A stretch of DNA of 39,554 nt from assembly GCA_903873415.1 (NCBI GenBank), contig CAIQOK010000133.1, positions 1-39,554 on the forward strand, written 5' to 3'. A program made the position numbers and the translations under genes. The notes below the pieces were generated by a model. It had not been told where the DNA came from. It searched no databases and worked only from the letters and a program-made list of their open reading frames with translations. This document shows, one piece after another, positions 5,719 through 37,595 of the stretch (position 1 is its first letter; every line of letters begins with the position of its first letter). Source of the DNA: an uncultured Verrucomicrobiota bacterium. GTDB taxonomy: Bacteria; Verrucomicrobiota; Verrucomicrobiia; Limisphaerales; CAIQOK01.

Positions 5719-6071
5719 TGGTGGACGCGGCGGGAGTTGAACCCGCGTCCCTGACAAGCAAACCAGCTGCGACTACATGCTTAGTCTGGTGTAGATTTTC
5801 TGCTATGCGATGACGTCCAGACTCGAGTCGCACTGCCTAGTCCGCATGGAATTTCTCGGCTGACGACGCGCGGTCTCCGTCTTCAACCATGCCTGCTATG
5901 GCGTTCATCCAAAGTAGCAGGTGTCCCTTGGTGAACGTCGTGGCGCATTAGGCCGCGAGAGCTAGTTCTTGATTAGCACTTAATTTTTGACTCGATGATT
6001 AACGAGGCCAACGAATCATCCTCGGCATGCCGCCTCTGACGTGTCTATCAGGTCGAAACCAGTACGCGCCC
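5719..6071 (-). ncRNA. ssrA: Transfer-messenger RNA (tmRNA)
   Basis: Read on the minus strand, the 5' end GGGCGCGTACTGGTTTCGAC is the typical tmRNA start. The 3' end carries the near-invariant T arm GGGTTCAACTCCCGC, then CGCGTCC, A and an encoded CCA. GGGCGCG (6071-6065) pairs with CGCGTCC (5729-5723) over seven pairs with one G-U. The sequence GGCATGCCGAGG after the 5' domain also matches known tmRNAs. It is the standard one-piece form, 353 nt. tmRNA with SmpB rescues stalled ribosomes and adds a degradation tag. Confidence 0.95.
5948..5977 (-). other. tmRNA tag reading frame, peptide ANQELALAA
   Basis: Within tmRNA, the codons GCT AAT CAA GAA CTA GCT CTC GCG GCC followed by TAA encode ANQELALAA. 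The LALAA ending fits tags recognised by ClpXP-type proteases. The first codon is inferred from similarity to other tags: the resume codon cannot be fixed exactly by eye because the usual UAGUC-like signal is only weakly present just before it. Confidence 0.75.
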
Positions 6072-22814: not shown

Positions 22815-22960
22815 AACCCCAGCGAAAAACAGCGAAAAAACCAGCAAAACAGGGCATTTGGGCAGACGGGCGAAACCGGTCCAGCGACACTTTCACCAAA
22901 ATGAAAAGCGAAAACACATTAATGAAGACGGGTGGAATTGGAAAAAAGAAGACTGGAAAA

Positions 22961-23037
22961 TGGAGCGAGCGAAGGGATTCGAACCCTCGACACTCACGTT
23001 GGCAACGTGATGCTCTACCAGGCTGAGCTACGCTCGC
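22961..23037 (-). tRNA. tRNA-Gly, anticodon GCC
   Basis: Minus strand 5' GCGAGCG ... 3' CGCTCGC with seven acceptor pairs, D arm AGCTCAGCCTGGTAGAGC, anticodon stem TCACG/CGTGA with loop TTGCCAA (anticodon GCC), T arm AGGGTTCGAATCCCT, discriminator T, and encoded CCA. It is 77 nt and fully canonical. It stands alone between the IS21 remnant and the sigma-54 promoter region. Confidence 0.96.
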
Positions 23038-23377
23038 GTCCTAACCAGTTCGTTGATATTAGCGCAGCGCCTCAAGTTGGCAAGCGTGATTTTTTCAGAA
23101 AACGAAAATCCCCACCAGCAAGCCACCCGACCCTCCCCGCTGTCGAGCCAACCACGCCTGGATCCAATGGGAAACTCTTTTCTTTGGGGGATTTTGATCG
23201 TGCCGAAAAAGACAACGAAGTTTGAGCCTGCTCCCCTTTCATGTGTTTCCTGTCAAAACCGAAGACATTAAATTAGGCAAAGAAGTCCGGATCGCCCGAT
23301 CTCTTCAATCCAGGCGAACCAACCCATCCCCCGGGCGGACATGGTGACAGCCCCGCTTTTTTCCAACATCCCGGATC

Positions 23378-23394
23378 TGCGCAAAGCATGCGCA
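23378..23394 (+). promoter_or_regulatory. Dyad site 1, probable activator binding site
   Basis: TGCGCA AAGCA TGCGCA: two 6-base half-sites with a 5-base spacer, flanked by C and G that extend the symmetry. This has the same architecture as NtrC sites (TGCACC-N5-GGTGCA). It is centred at 23386, about 107 bases before the predicted sigma-54 start site. Confidence 0.5.
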
Positions 23395-23408
23395 GCAAAC
23401 GCCAATAT

Positions 23409-23425
23409 CGCGCAATTTTTGCGCA
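23409..23425 (+). promoter_or_regulatory. Dyad site 2, probable activator binding site
   Basis: CGCGCA ATTTT TGCGCA: a second site with the same half-sites (one base different) and the same 5-base spacer. Its centre (23417) is 31 bases from that of site 1, close to three DNA turns, so the two sites face the same side. Confidence 0.5.
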
Positions 23426-23465
23426 GCGCCCGGGTGGTTGCACTGCCAATTCATCAGTTTTCCTC

Positions 23466-23481
23466 TTGGCACGCGGATTGC
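23466..23481 (+). promoter_or_regulatory. Sigma-54 (RpoN) -24/-12 promoter
   Basis: TTGGCACG CGGA TTGC matches the consensus TTGGCACG-N4-TTGC at every defined base, with GG (23468-23469), ten bases, then GC (23480-23481). Transcription would start near 23493, giving a leader of about 67 bases before the start at 23560. The downstream genes are the small secreted protein and the secretion operon. Confidence 0.8.
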
Positions 23482-23559
23482 GTGTGGGGTTAGATGAATT
23501 AGGCGGCGGCACTGAGTGCTGTGCGCCAAAAAACAAAAACAGACAAAACCGATCAGCCC

Positions 23560-24108
23560 ATGAAAATCAACCGCATTTTTACCCTTTGCGCTTTGGCAGG
23601 CTCCCTGTTCCTGAGCGCGCACAGCGTCTCGGCCCAATCAGAAAACGGCGGCGACCAAGGCGGTCGTCGCAATCGCGGCGGCGGCGGAAACTTTGATCCG
23701 GCCCAGTTCCAACAGCGCATGATGGACAATGTCCGGGACCAGCTCGGCTTCACAAATGACACCGAGTGGAGCGCAATCCAACCGCTCATCCAAAAGGTGA
23801 TGGACGCGCGCCGGGACGTGGGCATGGGCGGCATGAGCCGACTCTTTCGCGGACGCAGCAGCGGTGGGGACCAGGGCGGCTCACGCCGGGGTGGCGGCAT
23901 GTTCGGTCAATCCAGCCCGGAAGCCGAAGCCCTGCAGAAGGCCCTTGATGACAATTCTCCGGCCGCGCAAGTGAAAGCGGCGCTGGAAAAGTATCGCTCC
24001 ACGCAGAGGGACAAGGAAACCAAGCTGGAGACCGCTCAGAATGCCCTGAAACAGGTGTTGACGGTTAAGCAGGAAGCTCAAGCAGCCCTGCTGGGACTGG
24101 TGAACTGA
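23560..24108 (+). CDS. Small secreted protein, first gene of the secretion operon
   Basis: 182 residues. Signal peptide 1-23 (FTLCALAGSLFLSAHSVSA). The mature protein opens with a Gly/Arg/Asn-rich stretch. A helical segment follows, QFQQRMMDNVRDQLGFTNDT, EWSAIQPLIQKVMDARRD, then a second Gly/Arg/Ser-rich stretch and a C-terminal charged helix (VKAALEKYRSTQRDKETKLE). I recognise a layout seen in Verrucomicrobia periplasmic proteins with a helix pair, but no function. It is first after the sigma-54 promoter and 33 bases before gspE, so it is probably co-transcribed with the secretion genes. Confidence 0.7.
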   Translation: MKINRIFTLCALAGSLFLSAHSVSAQSENGGDQGGRRNRGGGGNFDPAQFQQRMMDNVRDQLGFTNDTEWSAIQPLIQKVMDARRDVGMGGMSRLFRGRSSGGDQGGSRRGGGMFGQSSPEAEALQKALDDNSPAAQVKAALEKYRSTQRDKETKLETAQNALKQVLTVKQEAQAALLGLVN

Positions 24109-24141
24109 GCGATAACCAGCAGAGAGTTGAGTGCGCCAGCC

Positions 24142-25875
24142 ATGAACCCAGCCGTTCCACCCAACCCGGCCCTGCCATCGTTGCTTGACCGCATGGTGGC
24201 GGCGCGACAACTCTCCGCTCTGGACGCGCAGGCTTTGCGCCAAGCCAAGCCTGCCATCTTGTCAGAGGAAGAAGCACTCCGCTGGCTGGCCCGGGAATAC
24301 GGCCTTTCCTTCACCAGTCTTGAAGACGTGGATCCAGACCGCCAGTTGCTCTCCCTCTTTCCCGCCCGACTCCTGCTCAAGGAGGAACTACTTCCCCTGC
24401 GTCGCCACAACGGCACCGTGGAGGTGGCCACCAGCCGGCTCTTCGCCACCCACGGACTGGACGCTCTCAAAACACTCACCGGTCTGAACCTGCAACCGGT
24501 GCTCGCAACCTCGGAAGCCGTCCAGCGCGAAATCAAAAAACGCCTCGGCGTAGGCGCCGACACCATCGGCACCCTCGACGAGGAAAAGGGCTTCCAAGTG
24601 GTGGACGAGAACTCCGAGGACACCAATCTGGATGACGCCGCCGAAGACGAGGCATCCATCATCCGGTTCGTCAACCAGGTCCTCAAAGACGCCATCGAAC
24701 TGCGCGCCTCCGATGTGCATCTGGAACCCTTCGAGGACGAGTTCCGAATCCGCTACCGGATTGACGGTGAATTGCAAGAGGTGTCCGTGCCGGCGCAACT
24801 CAAGCGGTTCCAGCCAGCCATCGTTTCCCGCGTCAAAATCCTCAGTCATCTCAACATCGCCGAAAAGCGCCTGCCCCAGGACGGCCGCATCAAAATCCGG
24901 CTCGACAACGCCGAGGTCGACATCCGCGTCTCGGTCATCCCCATGCTGCACGGCGAGGCGGTCGTGATGCGTCTACTGCGCCAAAACTCCACCCTGCGCG
25001 GCCTCTCGGATATCGGGATGAACCTGCGCGAATTGGAGCATTTCCGGCATGTTCTTGGAATGCCCCATGGCATCATCCTCGTCACTGGCCCGACCGGCAG
25101 TGGCAAAACCTCCACCCTCTACACCGCACTTAACGAGATCAACGATTCAGTCCGCAAGATCATCACCGTGGAGGATCCGGTCGAATACCAGCTCAAGGGC
25201 GTCAACCAAATCCAGGTCAACGAAAAATCCGGACTCACCTTCGCCCGGGGCCTGCGCTCCATCCTGCGCCACGATCCGGATGTCATCCTGATAGGTGAGA
25301 TCCGGGACGCCGAGACGGCGCAGATTGCCGTGCAGGCGTCGCTCACGGGGCATCTGGTCTTCTCCACGCTGCACACCAACGACGCTCCCGGCGCCCTGAC
25401 CCGGCTGGTGGACATGGGTGTCGAACCCTATCTTGTAGCCTCGTCACTCGAGGCTGTGCTGGCCCAGCGACTGGTGCGTGTGCTCTGCAAACTCTGCAAG
25501 CAACCCGACACCTCCGCCCGTGCGGCGCAGTTCAAATTAAAACTCGGCATCGCACCGGATCGCACTCTTTTCAAATCCGTGGGCTGCCGCGAATGCCGCA
25601 ACACCGGATTCTTCGGCCGGCACGCCATTTTCGAGTGGATGGATACCGACGAGGAAATCCGGCAACTGATTCTCAAAAGCGCCTCCACCGACCAGATCAG
25701 GGCTGCGGCACGCAAGGCGGGCATGCGCACTCTGGCCGAAGATGGCTGGCGCCTGGTCGCCGCCGGCGTCACCACCGTCGAGGAGGTCCTGAGCGTCACC
25801 ACCGCCAAAGAGGTGGAGAGCGCCACCAGAAACCAGACCGGCGACTCCGCCGCCAGCATCGCGGTGGCGGGATGA
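24142..25875 (+). CDS. gspE: Type II secretion ATPase GspE (PilB-like)
   Basis: 577 residues. N1/N2 domains (1-150), then the ATPase: RASDVHLEPF, DGRIKIRLDNAEVDIRVS, Walker A GPTGSGKTST from about residue 316, Asp box TVEDPVEYQL, Walker B LRHDPDVILIGEIRD, His box GHLVFSTLHTND. A zinc-binding tetracysteine follows, at Cys449, Cys452, Cys482 and Cys485. It powers pseudopilus assembly from the inner face of the membrane. ATG at 24142 is chosen; a TTG at 24127 in frame is possible. The stop overlaps the ATG of a 47-codon frame. Confidence 0.94.
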   Translation: MNPAVPPNPALPSLLDRMVAARQLSALDAQALRQAKPAILSEEEALRWLAREYGLSFTSLEDVDPDRQLLSLFPARLLLKEELLPLRRHNGTVEVATSRLFATHGLDALKTLTGLNLQPVLATSEAVQREIKKRLGVGADTIGTLDEEKGFQVVDENSEDTNLDDAAEDEASIIRFVNQVLKDAIELRASDVHLEPFEDEFRIRYRIDGELQEVSVPAQLKRFQPAIVSRVKILSHLNIAEKRLPQDGRIKIRLDNAEVDIRVSVIPMLHGEAVVMRLLRQNSTLRGLSDIGMNLRELEHFRHVLGMPHGIILVTGPTGSGKTSTLYTALNEINDSVRKIITVEDPVEYQLKGVNQIQVNEKSGLTFARGLRSILRHDPDVILIGEIRDAETAQIAVQASLTGHLVFSTLHTNDAPGALTRLVDMGVEPYLVASSLEAVLAQRLVRVLCKLCKQPDTSARAAQFKLKLGIAPDRTLFKSVGCRECRNTGFFGRHAIFEWMDTDEEIRQLILKSASTDQIRAAARKAGMRTLAEDGWRLVAAGVTTVEEVLSVTTAKEVESATRNQTGDSAASIAVAG

Positions 25876-26015
25876 CTCCCATGAACCTTTCAAACCCAAA
25901 AGCCAAAGGTAAAAAAGACCTTGCAACCGCTGGTGGAGGGCTTGTTTGCACCGAAGAAAACACCGGATTTCATTCCCTGCCCCAGCCGAGTGTCGAAGGA
26001 GTCTGGACGTTTTAG
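25872..26015 (+). CDS. Possible 47-residue protein between gspE and gspF
   Basis: The ATG at 25872 overlaps the gspE TGA (ATGA). The frame encodes MTPMNLSNPKAKGKKDLATA and continues through GGGLVCTEENTGFHSLPQPS to VWTF, stopping at 26015, six bases before the gspF ATG. All other genes in this operon are packed within a few bases of each other, so an otherwise empty 146-base gap would be an exception; the frame fills it. The composition is basic then neutral, with one Cys. No family is known. It may be a small operon protein or a fossil. Confidence 0.35.
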   Translation: MTPMNLSNPKAKGKKDLATAGGGLVCTEENTGFHSLPQPSVEGVWTF

Positions 26016-26021
26016 AAAATC

Positions 26022-27272
26022 ATGCCCGCCTTTTCCTACAGAGCTTTGCTGGCTGACGGCAAGATCGCCGAAGGGCACATTGACGCCCCTGGCCGGCCCG
26101 ATGCGCTGCGTCAACTCGAGGCTCTGGGCTTACGCCCCCTCAAACTCGCGGAAAAAGCAGGCTCCAAAAACAGCCCCGTCCGCCCCGCGTCACTTCAGGG
26201 CTTGGGAAACGTCTCCTTCAAACTCGGGCCAAAAAAAGTCTCACCCAAGGAGGTGGAAAACTTCACACGCCTGCTCTCCAGCCTGCTGGCTGCCGCCGTC
26301 CCCTTGAGCCGGGCGCTCATTATCCTCCAGAAAGAAGCCTCTTCCCCCGCCGCACAGGCCCAGTGGAAAGAAATCCACACTCTCGTCGTCGACGGCATGT
26401 CCTTGGCCGATGCCATGGCCCGCTCCCCCGAAACCTTCCCCCGTGTCTATGTGGCGATGGTCGAGGCCGGTGAGGCTGGCGGTTTTCTTGATGTTGTGCT
26501 GGCTCAGATCGCCGACTTCCAGTCCCGGGAAAAGGAGCTTAAATCCAAGGTCGTCACCGCGATGATCTACCCGTGCATCCTCTTAGGTCTGGCCTTGGTG
26601 GTGTTGACGGTGCTGCTGGTTTTTTTCATCCCGAAATTCCAAAAGGTTTTCGCCAGCGTCCACGGCGCTCTGCCCCTCATCACCCAGCTGGTCATCGGCC
26701 TGAGCGATCTGGTCCGCTCCTATGGATTCCTTGTGGGCGCGGGACTCGTCGGCGCCGGGTTCCTGATCCGCAGCTGGTTCGTCTCGGCAAAGGGCAAGCG
26801 CACTTGGGAAAGCCTTGTGCTGCAATCCCCGCTGGTCGGCCCCCTCATCGCCCAATTCGCCATGGCCCGTTTCTGCCGCATGCTCGGCACCCTGCTCGGC
26901 GCAGGCGTCCCGCTGGTGCACGGCTTGAATGTCGCCCGCAAATCCATCGGCAACCAGGTCCTCGTGGACGCCGTCAGCCAAGCCATCGACCGGGTCCAGC
27001 AGGGCGGCCGGCTGGGTCAGAGCCTGGCCGATTGCAAACGACTCTTCTCCGGCTCAGTTCTGGAAATGATCTCCGTGGCGGAGGAAAGCGGCCGGCTCGA
27101 CGCCGAATTGGTCCGTATCGCCGCCGTAACCGAGGTGGACTTGGACCGCAATCTGAAAACAGCCGTCGCCTTTGCCGAACCAATGATGCTCTTTCTCATC
27201 GCCGGATTCATCGGCGTCATTTTCATCAGCATGCTGCTGCCTGTGTTCTCCCTGCAGGATTACATCAAATAG
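26022..27272 (+). CDS. gspF: Type II secretion inner-membrane protein GspF
   Basis: 416 residues. N-terminal short domain (1-60, MPAFSYRALLADGKIAEGHI), then two GspF domains, each with a helical cytoplasmic part and membrane helices. Motifs include FTRLLSSLLAAAVPLSRAL and SPETFPRVYVAMVEAGEAGG in the first and FCRMLGTLLGAGVPLVHGL and MISVAEESGRLD in the second. Membrane segments lie near 185-210, 235-258 and 390-412. It forms the platform to which GspE and the pseudopilins attach. Six bases follow the small frame and 21 bases precede gspG. Confidence 0.93.
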   Translation: MPAFSYRALLADGKIAEGHIDAPGRPDALRQLEALGLRPLKLAEKAGSKNSPVRPASLQGLGNVSFKLGPKKVSPKEVENFTRLLSSLLAAAVPLSRALIILQKEASSPAAQAQWKEIHTLVVDGMSLADAMARSPETFPRVYVAMVEAGEAGGFLDVVLAQIADFQSREKELKSKVVTAMIYPCILLGLALVVLTVLLVFFIPKFQKVFASVHGALPLITQLVIGLSDLVRSYGFLVGAGLVGAGFLIRSWFVSAKGKRTWESLVLQSPLVGPLIAQFAMARFCRMLGTLLGAGVPLVHGLNVARKSIGNQVLVDAVSQAIDRVQQGGRLGQSLADCKRLFSGSVLEMISVAEESGRLDAELVRIAAVTEVDLDRNLKTAVAFAEPMMLFLIAGFIGVIFISMLLPVFSLQDYIK

Positions 27273-27293: not shown

Positions 27294-27731
27294 ATGAAAA
27301 CCGCAGTTCACTCAACGCTCCGTTCCCGGCCTCCCGCCCCGCTCGCCTTCACGCTCGTCGAAATGCTTCTCGTCGTCACCATCATCGGCATCCTCGCCGC
27401 TCTGGTGATCCCGAAAATCGTCGGGCGCAGCGAACAGGCGCGTATGACCGCAGCGCATGCCGACATCAACGGCGGCATCAAGTCCGCCCTCGACGCCTTC
27501 GAGGTGGACAGCGGCTCGTATCCCAAGAACCTGCAGGAACTAATCCAGGCGCCAGGCAACGCCAAAAACTGGCATGGACCCTATCTGGACCGAATCCCTC
27601 TGGACCCCTGGGGGAACAACTACCTCTATTACTACCCAGGCAAACGCAACCAGCGCGGCTACGACCTGCTCTCAGTCGGCCCGGACGGCAAAGAAGGCTC
27701 CGACGATGATCTTGGCAACTGGGCTAAATAA
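27294..27731 (+). CDS. gspG: Major pseudopilin GspG
   Basis: 145 residues. Prepilin signal PLA^FTLVEMLLVV with cleavage after Ala18 and Glu at mature position 5. The hydrophobic helix is ILAALVIPKIVGR. The C-terminal domain has DPWGNNYLYYYPG and the calcium-loop residues GPDGKEGSDDDLG near the end, as in GspG. It is the main subunit of the pseudopilus. The residue before the cleavage site is Ala rather than the usual Gly, which prepilin peptidases tolerate in some proteins. It overlaps gspH by 26 bases. Confidence 0.92.
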   Translation: MKTAVHSTLRSRPPAPLAFTLVEMLLVVTIIGILAALVIPKIVGRSEQARMTAAHADINGGIKSALDAFEVDSGSYPKNLQELIQAPGNAKNWHGPYLDRIPLDPWGNNYLYYYPGKRNQRGYDLLSVGPDGKEGSDDDLGNWAK

Positions 27732-28227
27732 CCCGCGCCTCCCCCGGGCCTTCACCTTGATCGAATTGATCCTGGTGCTGGCGCTGCTGGTGATCATCAC
27801 CTCGCTGGCGGCCCCGGCCATGGCGCGGTTCATTCGCGGCCGGGCGCTCGATTCCGAGGCCCGACGGTTGCTGGCCTTGCTGCACGCCGGGCAGAGCCGC
27901 GCCGTGTCCGAAGGATTACCGGCGGTGCTCTGGGTGGACGCCAAAAAAAACAGCTACGGTCTCGAGGCTGAGGCATCCGGAACGGATGGGGATCCGAAAG
28001 CGGAGACTCTGCTGGTGGATGCCACCCTGCAAATCGCATCGGAAAGCGGCACCGCCGGCGAGGCATCGACTTTCAAAAACCTCCCGGCCATCCGGTTCCT
28101 GGCCGATGGATCGGTGGACGAGAACGCTCCGTCCGCCCTGCGCCTGAGCGATGGCGAGGGCTTCTCGCGCTGGCTGATCGCCGCACAGGACGGATCGGGT
28201 TATGAGATTCGCGACCGGCAAAACTAA
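27706..28227 (+). CDS. gspH: Minor pseudopilin GspH
   Basis: 173 residues. Prepilin signal RLPRA^FTLIELILVLALL with Glu at mature position 5; again Ala precedes the cleavage site. The hydrophobic helix is followed by a beta-rich domain with LLALLHAGQSRAVSEGLPAV, resembling the GspH/FimT segment (A-R-AV--G--V-L). It is one of the tip subunits. The start ATG at 27706 lies inside gspG and the stop overlaps gspI by 26 bases, the tight packing expected of this operon. Confidence 0.85.
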   Translation: MILATGLNNPRLPRAFTLIELILVLALLVIITSLAAPAMARFIRGRALDSEARRLLALLHAGQSRAVSEGLPAVLWVDAKKNSYGLEAEASGTDGDPKAETLLVDATLQIASESGTAGEASTFKNLPAIRFLADGSVDENAPSALRLSDGEGFSRWLIAAQDGSGYEIRDRQN

Positions 28228-28606
28228 GAGCCCGGCCGGGTTCACCCTGGCCGAGGTGCTGGCGGCAATGCTCTTTCTGGCCATCGTCATCCCGGCCGCC
28301 GTGGAAGCACTCCATGTCGCCAGCCTCGCAGGAGAGGTCGCCGCACGCAAAGGCGCCGCCGCACGCATCGCCGACCGGGTTTTAAACGAAAGCGTGGTCC
28401 TGACAAACTGGACCGGCGGCGGGCGCAGCGGGACGGTGACCGAAGGCGCGCTGCCGTTCCGCTGGACCTTGACGAGTGGAAACTGGACATCGGACAACCT
28501 GCAGTTGCTGACGGCCGAAGTGAGCTTCGCCGCGCAGGGCAAAGAGTACTCAGTCAGGCTGAGCACGTTGGTCAACAACTCCGGCATGACCGGCACCACA
28601 CGATAA
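28202..28606 (+). CDS. gspI: Minor pseudopilin GspI
   Basis: 134 residues. Prepilin signal SPAG^FTLAEVLAAMLFLA with Glu5, a hydrophobic helix, then AARKGAAARIADRVLNESVV and a short beta domain (PFRWTLTSGNWTS, LLTAEVSF). This is the size and pattern of GspI, the pseudopilin that binds GspJ and GspK at the pseudopilus tip. Confidence 0.85.
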   Translation: MRFATGKTKSPAGFTLAEVLAAMLFLAIVIPAAVEALHVASLAGEVAARKGAAARIADRVLNESVVLTNWTGGGRSGTVTEGALPFRWTLTSGNWTSDNLQLLTAEVSFAAQGKEYSVRLSTLVNNSGMTGTTR

Positions 28607-28613
28607 TTTCACA

Positions 28614-29327
28614 GTGACTCCGGCAATCTATACGCAACTCCGGTCCCGCCACGGCGCACCGGGCTTCACGCTGATCGAGATGATTCTCGCCATCGGCGTC
28701 GCCGCCCTCGTGCTCATTGCCGTCAATGCCACTCTCTTTGCCGCATTGCACCTGCGCGACATCACCGCTGACGCTGTGGACGCAGCCTCGCCGCTCGACC
28801 GGGCGGCGGCCCTGCTGCACCGCGACTTGGAGTGCGCCGTGCCCCCCACCAACGGCTCCACCCGGGTGCTCTCCGGCAGCTTCCGGGTCGGCTCACTCAC
28901 CAGCCCCGGCGTGAACGGCCCCGTGTCCATCGAACTGTTCACCGCCACCGGCGCACTCAATAGCAACACCCCCTGGCCCGACATCCAGCGCGTCAGCTAC
29001 GGGTTGAAAGCCTCCACCGACCGTTCGGTAACCGGCAAAAACCTGGTGCGCAGCGTCACCCGCAACCTCCTCTCACTCACCGCCCCGGAAGTGCAGGAAC
29101 AACTCCTCCTCCACGGCGTGGCGGACATCAAGTTTTCCTGCTATGACGGCGCGCAATGGCAGGAGATCTGGGACACCACCAGCCCGACTTCGGCCAGCAC
29201 AAACCTCCCTCAGGCCGTGCGTGTTGACATTCAAATGGCGGGCGGCCCCCTGTCGCAACCGGTGGAACTGCTCGTCCCTTTGGGCGTGCAGTCGCTCACC
29301 AACATGGTCCTGACCAGCTCCCAGTAA
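28614..29327 (+). CDS. gspJ: Minor pseudopilin GspJ
   Basis: 237 residues from a GTG at 28614, seven bases after gspI. Prepilin signal APG^FTLIEMILAIGVAALV with Glu5. Later parts are beta-rich, with LLHRDLECAVPPTNG (the RDLE phrase is typical of GspJ) and, near the end, a VADIKFSCYDGAQWQEIWD phrase (typical LFRYY/FRYFDG-W-W). It forms the tip complex with GspI and GspK. Confidence 0.88.
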   Translation: MTPAIYTQLRSRHGAPGFTLIEMILAIGVAALVLIAVNATLFAALHLRDITADAVDAASPLDRAAALLHRDLECAVPPTNGSTRVLSGSFRVGSLTSPGVNGPVSIELFTATGALNSNTPWPDIQRVSYGLKASTDRSVTGKNLVRSVTRNLLSLTAPEVQEQLLLHGVADIKFSCYDGAQWQEIWDTTSPTSASTNLPQAVRVDIQMAGGPLSQPVELLVPLGVQSLTNMVLTSSQ

Positions 29328-29334
29328 ACCGGCC

Positions 29335-30759
29335 ATGAAAACCCGGCACAAATCCCAACTCCCGATCAACACCCGCCCGCACCGGACCTCCCCCCTCGGA
29401 AACCGGGCCTCTGGCCCACAACCTTGCACGCCCCAAGCCGGTTCCGTGCTGATCATTGTGCTCTGGATTTCGCTCGGGCTGGTGAGTATCGCCCTTTATT
29501 TCGCCAACTCCATGACCTATGAACTTCGCGCCTCAGACAACCGGGTGGGCGGCATGGCGGCCGACCAAGCCGTGGAAGGCGCGGCGCGTTATGTGAGCTA
29601 TGTGCTGCAGAACTTCGCCACCAACGGCACCGTACCCGACACCAACCTTTTCAACACCGCCGCCGTTTCCATCGGCGAGGCCAGATTCTGGATCGTAGGC
29701 CGCAATCCCTCCGACCAGAAACCGGCCACCCCCACCTTTGGACTCGTGGATGAAGGCGCCAAGCTGAACCTAAACACGGTCAACACCAACGTCCTGGCCT
29801 ATCTCCCCAACATGACCACCGATTTCGCCCAAGCCATCCTGGACTGGCGCGGCACCAATGGCAGCATCTCCCTCGACTATGCCACCCAAGGGTATACAGC
29901 CAAAAACGCCCCGTTTGAAACCATCGATGAACTGCGCTTGGTCTACGGCGCAACTATGGGTCTTCTCGCTGGCGAGGATGTGAACCGCAACGGCATTTTG
30001 GACCCGAACGAGAAAGATTTAAACAGTAACGGCCAAATGGATCCTGGCCTGCTGGACTGCGTCACTGTCTACACCCGGGAACCCAATTTTTACGCGGATG
30101 AATCATCCCCGACCAACGTCAACACAGCCACAGAATCGCGCCTCATCACCTGCTTCAAAAACTGCGGGGTCAGCAGCGCCACAGCCGCCGCCACCGCTCT
30201 CTACCGCTCCATCCACATCTCCCCCGCCCGGCTCAACACCTGCTCGGGAACCTTAGACCTGGCCGTCCGCTGCCGCACCGCAGGCCTAAACTCCTCCGAT
30301 TTCGCCAGGGTCGCCCCCTGCCTGACCACCAGCACCAACGCATACCTCCGCGGCCGCGTCAACGTCAACACCGCGACCGCCCCCGTGCTGACCGCTCTGT
30401 TCATGGGCTTGGACATCGACGAATCCACCGCCTCCGGCGCCGTGCAGACCCTAATCACCTACCGGGATCAGAACGCCGGCAACCTCGCCACAGTCGCTTG
30501 GGTGATTGACGCCCTGGGCAATAAAAACCCGGTCCTCACCGCCCTGGTCCGCGGCGATTTTCTCACCACCCACAGCTACCAATTCACCGCCGACATCGCC
30601 GCCACCGGCCCCTTCGGACGAGGCTACCGCCGGGTGAAATTCATCTTTGACACCAGCAACGGCGGGCCGGTCTTGATCTATCGTCAAGACCTGAGCCGGT
30701 TGGGCTGGGCGCTGGGGGAAGATGCCCGTCAAAGCTGGATCGCCAAACAAACGCCCTAA
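29335..30759 (+). CDS. gspK: Minor pseudopilin GspK with EF-hand-like loops
   Basis: 474 residues. A long N-terminal leader (about 35 residues), then AG^SVLIIVLWISLG, the GspK-type signal that lacks Glu5. The large globular part has NLNTVNTNVLAYLPN (145-159), TNVNTATESRL (260-270) and VNVNTATAPVL (about 340-350), helix-hairpin-helix-like phrases common in GspK. Residues 215-226 (DVNRNGILDPNE) and 228-239 (DLNSNGQMDPGL) are two calcium-loop sequences; the first is a perfect EF-hand loop. GspK caps the pseudopilus tip, and known members bind calcium. A gap of seven bases follows gspJ and five precede the next gene. Confidence 0.9.
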   Translation: MKTRHKSQLPINTRPHRTSPLGNRASGPQPCTPQAGSVLIIVLWISLGLVSIALYFANSMTYELRASDNRVGGMAADQAVEGAARYVSYVLQNFATNGTVPDTNLFNTAAVSIGEARFWIVGRNPSDQKPATPTFGLVDEGAKLNLNTVNTNVLAYLPNMTTDFAQAILDWRGTNGSISLDYATQGYTAKNAPFETIDELRLVYGATMGLLAGEDVNRNGILDPNEKDLNSNGQMDPGLLDCVTVYTREPNFYADESSPTNVNTATESRLITCFKNCGVSSATAAATALYRSIHISPARLNTCSGTLDLAVRCRTAGLNSSDFARVAPCLTTSTNAYLRGRVNVNTATAPVLTALFMGLDIDESTASGAVQTLITYRDQNAGNLATVAWVIDALGNKNPVLTALVRGDFLTTHSYQFTADIAATGPFGRGYRRVKFIFDTSNGGPVLIYRQDLSRLGWALGEDARQSWIAKQTP

Positions 30760-30764
30760 ACCAA

Positions 30765-32213
30765 ATGTTCAAAATACCTTTCCAAAGCGAGAAACGCCTC
30801 ACCAGCCTGCTGGGCCTGGCCCTCGACGGCAATCGGCTCGACGGCGTCGTCTTGCGCCGCGTCAATGGCGCCATCGAACTCCAACAACGGTTTTCCGTCA
30901 CGCTCTCGCTCGATCCACTCACCGCCACCCCGGAACTGGCCGGACGCGAAATCCGCAATCAGCTCGAGGCCGCGGGCATCCGGGAACGACAATGTGTTTT
31001 GGGACTGCCGCTCAAATGGGTGCTCACCGCCCAGACCGAAGTCCCCCCGCTGCCGGAGGCCGACACTGCAAGCTTGCTTCAACTGGAGGCCGAGCGCGGA
31101 TTCCCCACCGACGCTGCCACCCTGCAACTGGCCTACTCACGCTGCCCCCTGCCGGCCGACCATCAACTCGTACTCCTCGCCGGCATCCCCCGCCTCCACC
31201 TCGCCGCCCTGGAGCAGGTGCTGCTCTGCGCCAAGCTAAAACCCCTTAGTTTCACCATCGCATCCGCCGCCTTGCAGAACCCCGCCTCTCCCACCTCAAA
31301 TGGGGTCATGACTCTGGCCGTCGGCGAAACCTCCGTAACCCTGCAGATCTCCTGCGGCGGCGGCTTGGCCGCACTCAGGGCGCTGGAGGGCGCGATCAAC
31401 ACCGAATCAGGCCAGCCGGGTATTCAGGTCGACGTCGTGGCCCGCGAAGCCCGCATCACCCTGGGCCAGCTTCCATCCGCATTGCGGGCCGAAGTCAAAA
31501 ACATCCGCATCTTCGGACCGCAGACGCTGACACGGCCGCTGGCCGACGAATTGGAGCTGCGCTTTGAAACACTGGGCCTAAAGGTCTCTGTCGTGGACGC
31601 CTACTCACCAGGCGAATTGGGGGCAACCATCCCGCCGAACACCGCCGTGTCCGCGGCCCTAAGCCTCGCGGCCCGGACTCTAACCGGTCAGGTGCCCGCG
31701 CTGGAATTTCTGCCGCCCAAACCGACTCTGCTCGAAAACTTGGCCGCAAAATATTCTTCAGGCCGCCTCCGCGCCGTCGGCGCCGCCGCCGGCACCTTGG
31801 TCGCCTTGGTGGGCGGACTCTTTTTATTCCAACAAATCCAACTCTGGCAGCTCCGCTCTCAGTGGTCCAAAATGTCGCCCCAAGTGTCCGACCTCCAGGA
31901 CGTCGAGGACCAGATCCGGCAATTCCGCCCCTGGTTCGACAACTCCTTCCGCAACCTGTCAATCCTCCGCCAACTCACCCAAGCCTTCCCCGAGGACGGC
32001 GCGGTCACCGCCAAGAACATCGAAATCCGCGAGGACGGCACTATCAACTGCTCCGGCAATGCCCGGGACAATGCGGCGTTGCTGGCCACATTGTCACGAC
32101 TCCGGGCCGCCGAGGGCGTCAGCGGAGTGAAAATCGATCTCATCCACGGCAAGACTCCGATGCAATTCACGTTTGAATTCCGCCAGGGAAATGGAGGCAG
32201 TCATGAAAATTGA
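30765..32213 (+). CDS. gspL: GspL-like protein (PilM-like domain joined to PilN-like domain)
   Basis: 482 residues. Residues 1-310 look like an actin-fold PilM/GspL cytoplasmic domain (LLGLALDGNRLDGVVLRRVN, VLGLPLKWVLTAQTEVPPLP, later LRALEGAINTESGQPGIQVD). One membrane helix follows at 335-357 (RAVGAAAGTLVALVGGLFLF). The periplasmic part (360-482) has a coiled helix and a ferredoxin-like PilN/GspL domain (SILRQLTQAFPEDGAVTAKN). It links GspE inside to GspM outside the membrane. The next gene overlaps its end by 11 bases. Confidence 0.8.
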   Translation: MFKIPFQSEKRLTSLLGLALDGNRLDGVVLRRVNGAIELQQRFSVTLSLDPLTATPELAGREIRNQLEAAGIRERQCVLGLPLKWVLTAQTEVPPLPEADTASLLQLEAERGFPTDAATLQLAYSRCPLPADHQLVLLAGIPRLHLAALEQVLLCAKLKPLSFTIASAALQNPASPTSNGVMTLAVGETSVTLQISCGGGLAALRALEGAINTESGQPGIQVDVVAREARITLGQLPSALRAEVKNIRIFGPQTLTRPLADELELRFETLGLKVSVVDAYSPGELGATIPPNTAVSAALSLAARTLTGQVPALEFLPPKPTLLENLAAKYSSGRLRAVGAAAGTLVALVGGLFLFQQIQLWQLRSQWSKMSPQVSDLQDVEDQIRQFRPWFDNSFRNLSILRQLTQAFPEDGAVTAKNIEIREDGTINCSGNARDNAALLATLSRLRAAEGVSGVKIDLIHGKTPMQFTFEFRQGNGGSHEN

Positions 32214-32739
32214 AAATCGCCAGCAGTTTCTTCTCGTGCTGACCCTCGCCGCCGCCGCGCTCTTGGTGGGCGTCAATTTCATTTATGAACCCCTCCAAAA
32301 CCTTTGGTCGGCGCGGAGCGCCCAGATCCGCGAACTGCAGGCCAAAATCGAGAGCGGCCGCAAGCTTCAACTCCGAGGACCGGCGGATCATAAGCGCTGG
32401 AACAACATGCTCACCAATTCGTTGCCGAGCAACACCTCGATGGCCGAGCAGCAGCTCTTCACCGCCTTGGACAACTGGCGGCGCAGCAGCGGCGCCGAAA
32501 TCACCAGCCTCAGCCCGCAATGGAAATCCACCTCAACCAACCACCTCACCCTCCACTGCCGCGTCGAAGCCACCGGAAATCTCGGCGCACTGAGCCAGTT
32601 TCTTTACAGCCTTGAACAGGGCCCTCTGGGAATCAAGGTCGACACCGCGGAACTCAGCGCCCACGACCTGACCGGCCAGCAACTCACCCTCGGCCTGCAG
32701 CTCAGCGGCCTGGCCCTGCCACAACCCGCCCAAAAATGA
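32203..32739 (+). CDS. gspM: GspM/PilO-like protein
   Basis: 178 residues. Start at 32203 chosen because GGAGG lies five bases before it; an ATG at 32191 is in frame but overlaps that site. A membrane helix at 8-25 (FLLVLTLAAAALLVGVNF), a coiled coil of about 30 residues (SARSAQIRELQAKIESGRKL), and a periplasmic ferredoxin-like domain (NHLTLHCRVEATGNLGALSQ, FLYSLEQGPLGIKVD). It partners with the GspL-like protein. Its stop overlaps the next start (ATGA). Confidence 0.75.
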   Translation: MKIENRQQFLLVLTLAAAALLVGVNFIYEPLQNLWSARSAQIRELQAKIESGRKLQLRGPADHKRWNNMLTNSLPSNTSMAEQQLFTALDNWRRSSGAEITSLSPQWKSTSTNHLTLHCRVEATGNLGALSQFLYSLEQGPLGIKVDTAELSAHDLTGQQLTLGLQLSGLALPQPAQK

Positions 32740-33329
32740 AATTCACGCAAACCCTCCCGGGCCTCACCCTGGCCCTCCTGCTCCATCACGTCCGCCCGGT
32801 CGCGGCCCAGACCAACCTGCCCGCCCCACCGCCCACCCCGGCCACCTTCAGCCGGTTTATCTCCGAGCGGAACATCTTCGACCCGAACCGCTCCCCGCGC
32901 TTTGCCCGCAGCAGCCCGAGAACCGAGCCCAAACCAACCCGCACCACCCGCGAAACCCCCACCTTCACCCTCGTCGGCACCATGAGTTATGAAAAAGGAC
33001 TCTTCGCCTTCTTTGACGGCAGCAGCCCCGAACTGCGCAAAATCCTCTGCCAGTCTGACTCCAACACCATCGCCGGCTACTCCGTGGCCGAAATCACCCT
33101 CACCGGGGCCAGACTGCTGAGCATCGACAAAAAAGAAACACTCGAACTCAAGCTCGGCGAGCGAATGCGCCAAGAGGAAAACCGCTGGCGAGTCATCGCC
33201 CCCTCGGAGTTGCCCCCCGAAAACACCCCGAAAGAGACGCCCGCAGCCACTCCGGCCCCCGCCGCAGCCGCTGAACCTAATGATATTTTGAAAAAGCTCA
33301 TGCAGAAACGAGAACAGGAATTAAAATGA
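32736..33329 (+). CDS. GspC/PilP-like protein
   Basis: 197 residues. A hydrophobic N-terminus (8-24) may be a signal peptide or anchor. Then FSRFISERNIFDPNRSPRF, the phrase (..NIFDP.R) found before the homology region of GspC and in PilP-like proteins, followed by FTLVGTMSYEKGLFAFFD, IAGYSVAEITLTGARLLS, IDKKETLELKLGERM. This is the small beta domain that binds the N0 domain of secretins. A Pro/Ala linker and a charged C-terminal helix follow; no PDZ domain is present. It connects the inner-membrane platform to the outer-membrane channel, and its position directly before the secretin genes supports this. ATGA overlap at both ends. Confidence 0.7.
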   Translation: MKFTQTLPGLTLALLLHHVRPVAAQTNLPAPPPTPATFSRFISERNIFDPNRSPRFARSSPRTEPKPTRTTRETPTFTLVGTMSYEKGLFAFFDGSSPELRKILCQSDSNTIAGYSVAEITLTGARLLSIDKKETLELKLGERMRQEENRWRVIAPSELPPENTPKETPAATPAPAAAAEPNDILKKLMQKREQELK

Positions 33330-34663
33330 AAACCACAGCCTCAGCCCTTCTTAGCGCGCTCTGCCTTTCCGCCCTGACCTTCCCGGTGGCCGCCCAACCG
33401 ACCCCCGGAAACTCAGCGCAGACCAATAGCATTGGCACCCAGCCCCCCACCCCCCCAACGCAAACCGCTCCCGACACCGCGGCCGATAAACAGTCGACCC
33501 CTCAAATACCACGCCAGACCGAGTCCATCATCATCCAACCCAAACACAGAGAGCCCCAAGCCCTGCCAAACCCGTTCGCCCCGCCAACGAAACCGGTAGG
33601 CACCAATACCGCAGAACTGCGCCTGAACTTCCGCAACGCCCCCTTGGAAATGGTGCTCAACTATCTCAGCGATGCAGCCGGTTTCATCATCGTTCTCGAC
33701 ACCCGCATCACCGGCACCGTCAATATCATCAGCAGCCATCCGGTGACCCGCGAGGAGGCCGTCGACCTCCTCAATACTGAGCTGAACCGCAACAATTATG
33801 CCGCCATCCGCGAAGGCCGCACCCTGACCATCGTGGACAAAAGCGTTGCCAAAACCCGCAACATCCCCGTCCGCACCGGCAACATCCCCGCCAACATCCC
33901 CAAAAACGACGAAATCGTCACCCAGATCATTCCCATCCGCTTCGTCGAAGCCCGGCAGCTAACCTCCGACCTGGCGCCGTTCCTCTCCTCCCAGGCAACC
34001 ATTACCGCGAACGAAACCGGCAATGCCATTTTGATCACCGACACCCAGGCCAACATCCGGCACCTCGTTGAAATCATTCAAGCGGTGGACAGCAACGCCG
34101 AAGCGGAAACCGAAATCCGCGTCTTCCGATTGAAAAACGCAAGTCCGACAGATATTGCCAATGAACTTGGCAGCATCTTTCCAAGCAGCTCCGGCGGTTC
34201 ACAATCCCCAATCCGCTTCGGCGGCGGCAGTGGCGGATTCTTCTCCCGGATGATGGGCGGTGGCGGCGGCGACACCGGTGGTCAAAGTAAGAACGCCAAC
34301 GATCGCATCAAAAAGGCAACCCAGGTTACCGCCGTGGCCGATACGCGTATCCAAGCCGTCATCGTAACCGCGCCCAAGGACTTGATGCTCCAGATCGCTG
34401 AGATGATGACCGACCTGGATGTCCCCTCGGACCGGGATCAAGGGGTTTATGTGTTTCAGATGAAAAACGGGGATCCACAGCAGGCGGTGCAGGTCTTGCA
34501 AAACATGTTCCAGAGCGGCACATCCGCCCGCACGAGCAGCGGATCCTCGCAAAACAGCCCACTGCAGCAGCGGGCTTTGAACAGCACCACCAGCATGGGC
34601 TCCACCACCCCCTCGGGGATCGGCGGCGGCACAACCGGCGGCGGCAGTCGGACTGGCCTGTGA
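33326..34663 (+). CDS. Secretin N-terminal half (N0-N1-N2 and first part of N3)
   Basis: 445 residues with a signal peptide (1-23) and a Pro/Thr/Gln-rich stretch to about 90. N0 (96-175, LRLNFRNAPLEMVLNYLSDA), N1 (196-256, IIPIRFVEARQLTSDLAPFL), N2 (262-368, interrupted by a Gly-rich loop at 288-320) and the opening of N3 (373-397, VYVFQMKNGDPQQAVQVLQN). It then ends in a Ser/Gly/Thr-rich tail (GIGGGTTGGGSRTGL). No secretin pore domain is present, so alone it cannot form a channel. The remaining part is the next gene, 18 bases downstream. It reaches down into the periplasm to meet the GspC/PilP-like protein. Confidence 0.85.
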   Translation: MKTTASALLSALCLSALTFPVAAQPTPGNSAQTNSIGTQPPTPPTQTAPDTAADKQSTPQIPRQTESIIIQPKHREPQALPNPFAPPTKPVGTNTAELRLNFRNAPLEMVLNYLSDAAGFIIVLDTRITGTVNIISSHPVTREEAVDLLNTELNRNNYAAIREGRTLTIVDKSVAKTRNIPVRTGNIPANIPKNDEIVTQIIPIRFVEARQLTSDLAPFLSSQATITANETGNAILITDTQANIRHLVEIIQAVDSNAEAETEIRVFRLKNASPTDIANELGSIFPSSSGGSQSPIRFGGGSGGFFSRMMGGGGGDTGGQSKNANDRIKKATQVTAVADTRIQAVIVTAPKDLMLQIAEMMTDLDVPSDRDQGVYVFQMKNGDPQQAVQVLQNMFQSGTSARTSSGSSQNSPLQQRALNSTTSMGSTTPSGIGGGTTGGGSRTGL

Positions 34664-34681
34664 CACCTGAAACACAATTCG

Positions 34682-36019
34682 ATGAAAACGCATAATATGA
34701 AAGCAAACGGTTTCAAGAAGCATCTCGCTGCAACGCTGGCCCTCGCCCTATCCTCCGCGATCGAACTCTCCGCCCAGTCCAGATACGGCGGCGGCGGATT
34801 CGGCGGATTTGGTGGATTTGGAGGCTTCGGCGGATTCGGAAGTGGATCCAGTGGCAGTTCCAGCAGAGGCAGTACCACCCCCAGCGGCCAATACAACAAC
34901 AACGGCACCGTCGGCAACGCCGTCATCTCCGTCGATCCCGTCACCCACAACATCATTGTCATCGCCGACAAGCAGACCCGCGAGCAAATCGGCGAAGTCC
35001 TCGCCAAACTCGACGCCCCGACGCCGCAGGTGCTCATCAAAGTCGTGTTCCTTGAGGTCGAACATAACAACCAGTCGGAAATTGGTGTCCAAGGCGGTTA
35101 CACCGGAGTTAACAAGAATTTCTCCCAGGCGGTGGGCTATGCCACCAACTTCGCCGTGGCCGACAATTCCATCGTTCCTCAAAGCATCTCTCCGGTAAAA
35201 CAGAGCGTCAACGCCAACAACAACTTCGGCCTGCCCCAATCCATCCCCGGAGCCACCGGCAACGGAGGTGTCTACCAGCTCATGGGCAGTGATTTCACGG
35301 CCACCCTGCAAGCCATCGCCGCCGCTGGCAAATCCCAGGTCCTCTCCCGCCCCTCCATCCTGGCCCGCGACGGTCAAATGGCACAGATCATTGTCGGCCA
35401 GAGCGTCTACCTGCCCAGCGGAGTGAGCTATAGCTCCGTCGGCGGAACAGCCTCCAGCATCCCAACCATCAACGGCAGCTATCAAAACGTGGGCATCCAG
35501 CTCGATGTCACCCCATTCATCGGAGCCAACAGCCTCGTCCAGATGATCCTTCAGCCACAGATCACCTCCGTCGACCTCTCCACACCCGGTCAGATAATCG
35601 CAGTCGCCCCAAGCACCCTGAGTTCAACTGCCGTCTATGCGCCCAACCTCAACAAACGTTCCGCCAACACCGTCGTAGTCACCCCGGACGGACAACCAGT
35701 CGTCATCGGCGGCCTCATCTCCAACGCCAAATCCTCCAGCGACACCAAAGTGCCGATTCTGGGCGATATTCCGCTGCTGGGCTTGCTCTTCAAATCCAGC
35801 GCCAAATCCAGCCGCAAAAACGAACTCCTCATCTTCCTCACCCCCCATATCGTCCAGATGCCTTCCGCCCTGGCCGCCCTGGCCACCAAGGAAACCGGCC
35901 AGTCCCAGCTCATCACCAACTCCATCTCGGAACAGGACCTCGACCGCTATCTGGAACGGGTCCCAGTCAAACCTGTTCCCCACGGCAAGCCAGACCCCAA
36001 ATCCACACCTCGGCGTTGA
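34682..36019 (+). CDS. gspD: Secretin C-terminal half (end of N3 and pore domain)
   Basis: 445 residues. Its own signal peptide (about 10-32, FKKHLAATLALALSSAIELSA), then a Gly-Phe tract (36-54), a Ser-rich linker, and AVISVDPVTHNIIVIADKQT (80-99) through LDAPTPQVLIKVVFLEVE. This is the second half of an N3 domain and the start of the pore domain. The pore domain has KSQVLSRPSILARDGQMAQI (217-236), VGIQLDVTPFI, and the secretin signature VPILGDIPLLGLLF (357-370), ending ELLIFLTPHIVQ. It forms the outer-membrane ring. ATG at 34682 or 34697 are both possible starts. A C-terminal extension of about 50 residues may bind a pilotin. Confidence 0.88.
   Translation: MKTHNMKANGFKKHLAATLALALSSAIELSAQSRYGGGGFGGFGGFGGFGGFGSGSSGSSSRGSTTPSGQYNNNGTVGNAVISVDPVTHNIIVIADKQTREQIGEVLAKLDAPTPQVLIKVVFLEVEHNNQSEIGVQGGYTGVNKNFSQAVGYATNFAVADNSIVPQSISPVKQSVNANNNFGLPQSIPGATGNGGVYQLMGSDFTATLQAIAAAGKSQVLSRPSILARDGQMAQIIVGQSVYLPSGVSYSSVGGTASSIPTINGSYQNVGIQLDVTPFIGANSLVQMILQPQITSVDLSTPGQIIAVAPSTLSSTAVYAPNLNKRSANTVVVTPDGQPVVIGGLISNAKSSSDTKVPILGDIPLLGLLFKSSAKSSRKNELLIFLTPHIVQMPSALAALATKETGQSQLITNSISEQDLDRYLERVPVKPVPHGKPDPKSTPRR
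34787..34843 (+). repeat. Gly-Phe coding repeat
   Basis: The codons for residues 36-54 of the secretin half repeat GGA/GGC-TT(T/C)-GG units, giving GGGGFGGFGGFGGFGGFG right after the signal peptide. Codons vary at the third base, so the peptide rather than the DNA seems to be conserved. Confidence 0.75.
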
Positions 36020-36071: not shown

Positions 36072-37595
36072 ATGAATGCCCCAGTCGGCCGACGCATCCT
36101 CGTTTACGGGGCGCTCCTCACCCTCTGGGCCCTGATCCTAGGCTGGCAGGTCGCGGAGCATTTCCGGGTACGCCGGGCCGCCCGGGCCGAACTCATCTAC
36201 AGAGCCAAGGACATCTCCTCCACTCTGGTCATCGTTCTGCGCTCCCAGCGCCGCTTCGGCGGCGTGGTCTCCAAGGAACGACTCGAGTCCGCACTGACCG
36301 ATCTGGTCAAACCCGCCGAGCCCGGGCAATCCGGCGAGCTCAAAGGCATCGCCCTGCTCAATGCCGCCGGCGATGTTGTAGCCTCCGCCGGAACAGTGCC
36401 CGAACTCTCCCAAAAGGGAGCCCCTCATCCCCCGGAGCTGTGGGAGGAACGCACCGTCACCTTGATGAACCTGGTGGATCTGGGCACCAACCTCACCCGC
36501 GAGGTCGAAAACACCACCACCCCGATCATCCTGTCACGGGAAAACTTTTTCCGGCCCGGAGAAACCAATCACTCCACCAACCTGCTGATGGACGCCCGCT
36601 TTGACCTCCACCGTTCCACCAACCTCCTCACCTCGGCCATCACTACCAATCCCCCACCGCGCGGAGACTGGACACGGGGTCGCCCCCGCTTCGGCCGCCC
36701 CTTCGGCATGAGCGAAGATCAGTTCAAAACAATCCTCGAAAAACAAGGCGTTCACAGCTTTGTCATCCTCATGTCCACAGATTCCGCGGACGAAACCTGC
36801 GCACGCGATCGGTGGCTGCGAATCATCATCGCCTCCCTGGCCACCGTCTCGGTGGCCGGTTCCGGACTGGCCTGGCGCACACTCTCCAATTCGGCCGAGT
36901 TGCAAATCCGCCTGCTCCGCGCCAGCGAACTCAACACGCATCTGCGGGAAATGAACCTCGCCGCCGCCGGACTGGCCCACGAAACCCGCAACCCCCTCAA
37001 CATCGTCCGAGGCTTGGCGCAGATGATTTCACGCCAGCCCGACGCACCCGCGGAGACACGGGAAAAGTCCCGCGCCATTGTCGAGGAAACGGACAAGGTC
37101 ACCGCACAGTTGAATGAATTCATCAACTACTCCAAACCGCGCCAAGTCCGACGCACCGCGCTGGCTCTGGCACCCGCCATCCAGGAAGTCGTCCGTGCTC
37201 TAGGCTTCGATCTTGAGGAAAAACAAATCAAACTGGAAGTCAAAGGCGACCCCCTCACTATCCAGGCCGATGAACAACTCTTCCGCCAGACCCTATTCAA
37301 CCTGATGCTCAACGCCATCCAAGCCGTCGAACCGGGCGGAACCATCCAGCTCTTGTCCGGACGACAAAACACCTCCGCAGCCTGGCTCGAAATCCGCGAC
37401 ACCGGGCCTGGAGTGCCGCCCGAACGACGGCAGGAAGTGTTCAAACCCTACTTCACCACCAACCAGAAAGGCACCGGGCTGGGCTTGGCGGTCGTCCAGC
37501 AGATCGTTCTGGCGCACGGTTGGGAAATCACCTGCCTGCCCAACGAACCGCGCGGCGCCGTCTTCCGCCTTACCCACCTGGCCTTGGCAACCTGA
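36072..37595 (+). CDS. Membrane sensor histidine kinase (NtrB/ZraS type)
   Basis: 507 residues. Membrane helix 1 at 8-27, a periplasmic sensor region of about 220 residues (28-249) with no recognised fold, and helix 2 at 250-268. Then the phosphoacceptor LAHETRNPLNIVRGL (301-315, His303), N box FNLMLNAIQAVEPGG (Asn414), G1 DTGPGVP (443-449), F box VFKPYFTT, G2 GTGLGLAV (467-474). The H-E-x-R-NPL and N-box patterns are those of kinases that pair with sigma-54 activators of the NtrC class. It follows the secretin half by 52 bases, probably in the same operon. No response regulator is present in the window. Confidence 0.88.
   Translation: MNAPVGRRILVYGALLTLWALILGWQVAEHFRVRRAARAELIYRAKDISSTLVIVLRSQRRFGGVVSKERLESALTDLVKPAEPGQSGELKGIALLNAAGDVVASAGTVPELSQKGAPHPPELWEERTVTLMNLVDLGTNLTREVENTTTPIILSRENFFRPGETNHSTNLLMDARFDLHRSTNLLTSAITTNPPPRGDWTRGRPRFGRPFGMSEDQFKTILEKQGVHSFVILMSTDSADETCARDRWLRIIIASLATVSVAGSGLAWRTLSNSAELQIRLLRASELNTHLREMNLAAAGLAHETRNPLNIVRGLAQMISRQPDAPAETREKSRAIVEETDKVTAQLNEFINYSKPRQVRRTALALAPAIQEVVRALGFDLEEKQIKLEVKGDPLTIQADEQLFRQTLFNLMLNAIQAVEPGGTIQLLSGRQNTSAAWLEIRDTGPGVPPERRQEVFKPYFTTNQKGTGLGLAVVQQIVLAHGWEITCLPNEPRGAVFRLTHLALAT

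Follow-up and report, generated by a model that had tools for sequence, protein, structure and literature searches.

A conserved sigma-54 promoter with paired TGCGCA dyads precedes a type II secretion operon in Verrucomicrobia and is probably served by a dedicated two-component system

Background

The window analyzed here, a stretch of DNA of 39,554 nucleotides from an uncultured Verrucomicrobiota bacterium, carries an operon that resembles those of type II secretion systems (T2SS), which raises the question of what switches this operon on. The original prediction, made from the sequence alone, was that sigma-54 controls the entire operon through a promoter and two upstream dyads and thereby links secretion to a signal sensed by an activator. 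As argued below, it is very likely that a dedicated sigma-54 two-component system activates the T2SS operon via the dyads and the -24/-12 promoter.

The secretion operon and its control region

Comparison with Pfam profiles identified GspE, GspF, GspG, GspH, GspJ, GspK and secretin domains with scores over the respective cut-offs and GspI below the cut-off. Judging by this complement of GspE, GspF, pseudopilins and secretin, the locus can be classified as a T2SS; for the inner-membrane components GspC, GspL and GspM, there are three conserved ORFs in the corresponding positions, without Pfam matches. The features of the control region and the operon are:

23378..23394, plus strand: putative distal enhancer dyad, TGCGCA-N5-TGCGCA, centre at about -107 (read in the sequence; conserved)
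23409..23425, plus strand: putative proximal enhancer dyad, CGCGCA-N5-TGCGCA, centre at about -76 (read in the sequence; conserved)
23467..23481, plus strand: sigma-54 -24/-12 promoter, TGGCACG-N4-TTGC (11/11 match to the consensus)
23493, plus strand: expected transcription start, predicted from the position of the -12 C at 23481
23560..24108, plus strand: g1, which opens the operon and encodes a small exported protein with a predicted helical hairpin; no family reached the cut-off
24127..25875, plus strand: gspE, ATPase (T2SSE, PF00437)
26022..27272, plus strand: gspF (T2SSF, PF00482)
27294..27731, plus strand: gspG, major pseudopilin (T2SSG, PF08334)
27574..28227 as the listed ORF, plus strand: gspH, pseudopilin (GspH, PF12019, 24.0 bits, cut-off 21)
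28202..28606, plus strand: gspI-like pseudopilin (20.5 bits, below the cut-off of 25)
28614..29327, plus strand: gspJ (T2SSJ, PF11612)
29335..30759, plus strand: gspK (T2SSK, PF03934)
30765..32213, plus strand: ORF in the gspL position (a positional label from conserved gene order; no Pfam match)
32173..32739, plus strand: ORF in the gspM position (likewise positional; no Pfam match)
32736..33329, plus strand: exported protein in the gspN/C position (likewise positional; no Pfam match)
33326..34663, plus strand: gspD1, an exported protein of its own that carries the N0 and N domains of the secretin (PF21305, PF03958)
34682..36019, plus strand: gspD2, secretin barrel with an apparent signal peptide of its own (PF00263)
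36072..37595, plus strand: sensor histidine kinase with the H-box HETRNPL, last gene of the operon (profile matches; conserved order)

The listed gspH ORF overlaps gspG, so its true start is probably located further downstream. Two genes share the secretin (33326-36019), with the N0 and N domains in gspD1 and the barrel in gspD2; because all 21 relatives of 21 likewise encode the two parts in different open frames, the split is not a sequencing error. A tRNA-Gly gene is located upstream of the control region, on the opposite strand.

The original prediction of a near-perfect -24/-12 promoter is borne out by direct reading of the sequence: TGGCACGCGGATTGC at 23467-23481 fits TGGCACG-N4-TTGC in 11 of the 11 specified positions. 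This is the only match without mismatches among the 14 in the window that have two or fewer, and one of three perfect matches in the 3.80-Mb genome; the other two lie within one long open frame (contig C113) and antisense to a 464-aa ORF (C176). When one mismatch is allowed, matches are not rare (91 in the genome vs 72 in the reversed control). By the search criterion used, no sigma-70-like site was found on the plus strand of the 22900-26100 segment, and a competing sigma-70 promoter near the operon was accordingly rejected.

The two dyads, each 17 bp long, are positioned as predicted, with centres at 23386 and 23417, that is, 31 bp apart and at -107 and -76 relative to 23493. The distal dyad, TGCGCAaagcaTGCGCA (23378-23394), has no mismatches and occurs once in the genome; the proximal one, CGCGCAattttTGCGCA (23409-23425), has a single mismatch, C as the first base. 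With up to one mismatch, dyads were found in 14 places in the genome compared to three in the control, and with up to two mismatches, in four places in the window compared to 3.3 expected, which is not rarer than chance. For the composite pattern of dyad and promoter, there is a single occurrence in the 3.80-Mb genome, and none in the control. Thus, a loosened dyad or a one-mismatch promoter taken alone is at the chance level, and the combination of the dyads with the promoter exceeds it.

Conservation of the control module

The module formed by two dyads and the promoter was scored on a scale with a maximum of 35, and scores of at least 28 were considered high. In the first set, comprising 30 named loci from metagenome-assembled genomes (MAGs) that were found via g1, mostly from Verrucomicrobia subdivision 3 / Limisphaerales, the best score was taken within 400 bp before g1 or as much of this region as the contig holds. 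High scores were obtained for 28 of the 30 loci vs 1 of 3,000 dinucleotide shuffles. In all 28, the promoter matches the consensus in 9-11 of the 11 positions and the dyads are spaced by 29-33 bp; the distance from the centre of the proximal dyad to the TGG of the promoter is 48-52 bp in 27 loci and 61 bp, one helical turn further, in the remaining one. The layout of NtrC-family enhancers that had been proposed for the window, with two sites in a fixed register to the promoter, is therefore maintained in these loci.

The second set consisted of 37 relatives in which the identity of the gspE ortholog is at least about 66%. Of these, 25 scored 28 or higher, compared to 0 of 2,220 shuffles; the genome sets overlap in part (G150/L106 and G230/L091 are apparently the same contigs), and the relatives are not independent samples. 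In a further set, seven of the eight assessable operons carry the module. Of those outside the order, five of six score at least 30, and the sixth (G332) has two perfect dyads 31 bp apart without a good promoter match. Given this conservation in relatives, the control region is far beyond chance. The possibility that the promoter-like and dyad sequences arose by chance, or reflect nothing but the structure of GC-rich intergenic DNA, is compatible with the chance-level rates of loosened single dyads and single promoters in the window but is contradicted by the shuffles and the conservation, and we consider its probability to be negligible. In one relative (L271 in G049), the g1 gene of a single operon is preceded by two distinct dyad pairs with about 230 bp between them.

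The cognate regulator

The genome encodes a single RpoN (contig C120; PF04552, E-value of 4.2e-58), along with seven strong sigma-54 activators and four weak AAA+ matches. One of the seven exceeds the NCBIfam equivalog cut-off for PrsR of the PEP-CTERM system (608.9 bits vs 502.6), whereas the remaining six pass no NCBIfam equivalog cut-off among the best 25 matches listed for each. The prsR gene (L178 in G000:C127) adjoins a kinase gene, so a sigma-54 system of the PEP-CTERM type is also present in this genome.

The kinase encoded by the last gene of the operon is of the NtrB/AtoS type, with two membrane-like stretches that flank approximately 220 residues. It follows the secretin genes in all 21 relatives examined, and the order of the genes is unchanged over the stretch that each contig covers. 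In 16 of these 21 genomes, the kinase gene is directly followed by an ortholog of the NtrC-family activator L006, which, in the genome of the window, is encoded outside the window (L181; G000:C150:47716-49083). Counted from coordinates, the kinase and the activator genes are located on the same strand within 1 kb of each other in 23 of the 33 genomes that hold both. The activator gene lies on another contig or in another place in several relatives, and in the genome of the window, it is away from the operon, so that the pairing with the kinase relies there on the orthologs. The neighbors of the detached gene on C150 encode lytic transglycosylase-like and TolQR/ExbBD-like proteins.

The C150 activator matches PF00158 with 227.9 bits, contains the GAFTGA motif and a helix-turn-helix (HTH) domain, both read in the sequence, and aligns through residues 10-447, nearly its whole length, with 4l4u, a structurally characterized regulator of the NtrC family. 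By its domain composition (receiver, sigma-54 AAA+ and Fis-type HTH), it can be assigned to the response regulator type of bacterial enhancer-binding proteins. The HTH segment, NRTETAKALGISRRALLYKLQRF, is identical to that of Escherichia coli AtoC in 18 of 27 positions, compared to 10-15 of 27 for the other six activators, and the DNA-binding helix is strongly conserved in 30 orthologs.

These data support the identification of the candidate regulator of the operon as the NtrC-family activator that is paired with the kinase encoded by the last gene. Together with the presence of rpoN and the conservation of the promoter before the orthologous operon, the absence of either of which would have been incompatible with the original prediction, the finding of an NtrC-type activator orthologous to the neighbor of the operon kinase supports the predicted sigma-54 link between the T2SS-like operon and a signal sensed by an activator. 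With seven activators in the genome, two-component crosstalk being a known occurrence, and the favored activator unlinked to the kinase in the genome of the window, it can be asked whether the dyads bind another activator, such as the NtrC-like one encoded on C18 or PrsR on C127, with the operon kinase serving a different partner. The linkage of the favored ortholog group to the kinase in most genomes with both genes, the assignment of the AtoC-like helix to this very activator, and the looser association with the operon of a control activator, the one other of the seven that was traced in relatives (see below), make this alternative unlikely.

The detached activator genes themselves do not appear to be controlled in the same manner: at the C150 gene and nine other such loci, neither a 12/12 dyad nor an operon-like pair was detected, and autoregulation via the dyads was rejected given that only single matches of 10-11/12 were present.

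Co-occurrence and joint loss

Two of the seven activators, the favored one and the control L004, were traced across the relatives. The kinase and the activator show the same distribution with respect to gspE: each is present together with the operon in 31 genomes, 6 genomes have the operon only, 3 the pair gene only and 18 neither, that is, each is found in 31 of the 37 operon-carrying genomes and in 3 of the 21 others. For L004, the corresponding counts are 25, 12, 7 and 14, so that the control is found in only 25 of the 37 operon genomes and in 7 of the 21 without the operon. Among the exceptions for the kinase and the activator, G003 has only a fragment of the activator, at a contig end, and the apparent absence of gspE in G015, G028 and G056 was rejected as an assembly gap, with the operon located on broken contigs.

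Among the 31 operon genomes with both the kinase and the activator, 7 have a module score below 28: in 2 of these, the region is cut by contig ends, and the remaining 5 keep at least one dyad, with an odd distance or a poor promoter. The dyads were then compared with the presence of the pair in 34 of the 37 operon genomes, the other three being G032, with no placeable g1 start, and G035 and G036, in which the contigs end before the promoter. Where the pair is present, all 29 genomes of 29 have a dyad with at least 11 of 12 matching positions within 400 bp before g1, and where it is absent, 1 of 5 does (Fisher p of 1e-4, with kinship among the genomes ignored); among mononucleotide shuffles, 17 of 3,400 contain a dyad of this quality. 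In two of the pair-less genomes, G007 and G021, long contigs cover the entire operon up to and including gspD2, and the kinase, the activator and the dyads are missing; G057 and G045 also have neither dyad nor pair, on contigs that end before the far end of the operon. In the exception, G040, the sites are present, and neither the kinase nor the activator was found in the assembly, which is 86% complete. The dyads and the kinase-activator pair are thus lost together.

This pattern bears on yet another explanation, namely, that the protein on the dyads is a repressor or an architectural factor with no relation to the switch, whereas the promoter is served by an activator acting from solution or from distant sites. 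Palindromes by themselves name no protein, and the distances of the dyads are unusual in several genomes, but the joint loss and the retention of the spacing and helical position of the dyads relative to the sigma-54 promoter speak against an unrelated protein, and we regard this explanation as very improbable.

Extent of the regulon

The perfect TGCGCA-N5-TGCGCA form, a search for which had been suggested in the original prediction, is unique in the genome as noted above; at the level of the order, the composite pattern was scanned for in 196 genomes, and 49 loci (29 besides the window and 20 chosen by hand) were examined. A second dyad matching in at least 10 of 12 positions is present in 24 of the 49 loci, and 22 of these 24 double-dyad modules precede g1, which in one case is a fragment cut off by the end of the contig. 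The switch therefore seems to serve secretion specifically. Of the other two, one (L332) is weak and precedes unrelated ORFs. The second, in G106, precedes a stand-alone gspD1-like gene (38% identity over 303 residues) with a promoter match of 11/11; the predicted control thus appears to have this gene as another target. The G106 module, with the dyad pair and the sigma-54 promoter, is located on the reverse strand at the high end of the locus (L347, G106:C109). Among the 25 loci without a second dyad, L129 and L329 represent the same operon, and the others resemble chance matches.

The product of the first gene

For g1, AlphaFold2 modeling with 29 sequences yielded confident helices between residues 47 and 177. 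CnrX and Spy are periplasmic stress or metal proteins and belong, with ZraP, to a group whose fold is a hooked helical hairpin. The best matches of the g1 model in the PDB include CnrX (Z-score of 6.1) and Spy (4.9), but unrelated helical proteins equal these values, which fall below the level that denotes relatedness for helical bundles. A comparison of the g1 sequence profile with the PDB and Pfam yielded nothing significant, and Foldseek produced no match at E of 0.001 or lower. Membership of g1 in the ZraP/Spy/CnrX group can accordingly be suggested only tentatively, the fold match being weak and not accompanied by a sequence match. The g1 gene is retained in four operons that lack the kinase and the activator; because g1 persists where the kinase is missing, a role as the sensor partner of the kinase is weakened and is not favored.

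A model of the switch and its implications

In soil and freshwater Verrucomicrobia, an export operon is located behind a predicted sigma-54 promoter with paired putative activator-binding sites. Because a sensor and an activator are, in most cases, encoded in the operon itself, a signal perceived by these two proteins probably turns export on. We infer the following course of events. The membrane histidine kinase (36072-37595) would sense a signal, probably from the envelope, and phosphorylate the NtrC-family activator, dimers of which would bind the two dyads, about three helical turns apart, and then oligomerize. ATP hydrolysis by the activator would open the closed complex of the sigma-54 RNA polymerase at the promoter located about 50 bp downstream, giving rise to a transcript that would start near 23493 and span g1-gspEFGHIJK-L-M-N-D1-D2-kinase. 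Given that the predicted transcript includes the kinase gene and, in most relatives, also that of the activator, positive feedback on activation is to be expected and appears probable.

A more far-reaching possibility, to which we assign a rather low probability, is that the T2SS is self-regulating across much of Verrucomicrobiae: the sensor and activator of the operon would read the state of the apparatus or its cargo, with g1, perhaps a CnrX/Spy-like protein, as the cargo gauge, resulting in secretion on demand with positive feedback and a split secretin.

The analysis yields a named candidate regulator pair, a putative binding motif and a promoter for the secretion machine of a lineage with hardly any cultured members, and offers a direct route to asking what triggers secretion in these bacteria. 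Furthermore, the joint presence and loss of the pair and the sites make this a clean case in which to test how orphan activators can be assigned to the DNA sites they recognize.

Comparison with known systems

A circuit of this kind is well known; as far as our literature search shows, what is new is that it is attached to a T2SS operon and widely conserved in Verrucomicrobiae. The search, which covered few subscription journals, produced nothing that links a sigma-54 system to T2SS in Verrucomicrobia, and queries on TGCGCA enhancers and on sigma-54 with type II secretion returned nothing on the present system.

One close parallel is AtoSC, the sigma-54 two-component system of E. coli that activates atoDAEB. 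Both systems combine an AtoS-type kinase adjoining an NtrC-family activator, a similar recognition helix, and paired TGCGCA/TGCACA sites upstream of a TGGCAC-N5-TTGC promoter. We located the AtoC site pair in the MG1655 sequence before atoD, with TGGCACTCCCCTTGC in the same promoter region; the verified pair includes GCTATGCAGAAAATTGCGCA, which contains TGCGCA (PMC3118216). The differences are that AtoSC targets short-chain fatty acid catabolism rather than a T2SS operon, that the AtoC sites have a 6-bp centre compared to 5 bp in the dyads described here, and that the C150 activator scores 459.1 bits against the AtoC equivalog (NF008469), below the cut-off of 714.

NtrC enhancers are 17-bp dyads of the TGC-N11-GCA form, and this form is shared by the dyads described here, along with the sigma-54 promoter and the pair of histidine kinase and response regulator that are also characteristic of NtrBC in enteric bacteria. 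The NtrC half-site, as given in the original prediction, is TGCACC, and the claim that the half-site in this control region differs from it holds: TGCGCA is closer to an AtoC site than to that of NtrC. In addition, the activator scores 396.7 bits against the NtrC equivalog (TIGR01818), below the cut-off of 558.6, and the unit contains no nitrogen genes.

PilSR is a sigma-54 two-component system that controls type IV pilus genes. It resembles the present system in the association of such a two-component system with a type IV filament machine of a related kind, and differs in that, here, the pair ends the T2SS operon and the sites precede the whole machine. Secretins encoded by two genes, RhcC1/RhcC2, are known from rhizobial-type type III secretion systems (PMC3574062); the present split secretin, of a type II system, is likened to these by the division of the gene. 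Apart from the secretion operon, the window contains a tmRNA gene (5719-6071) with the tag ANQELALAA.
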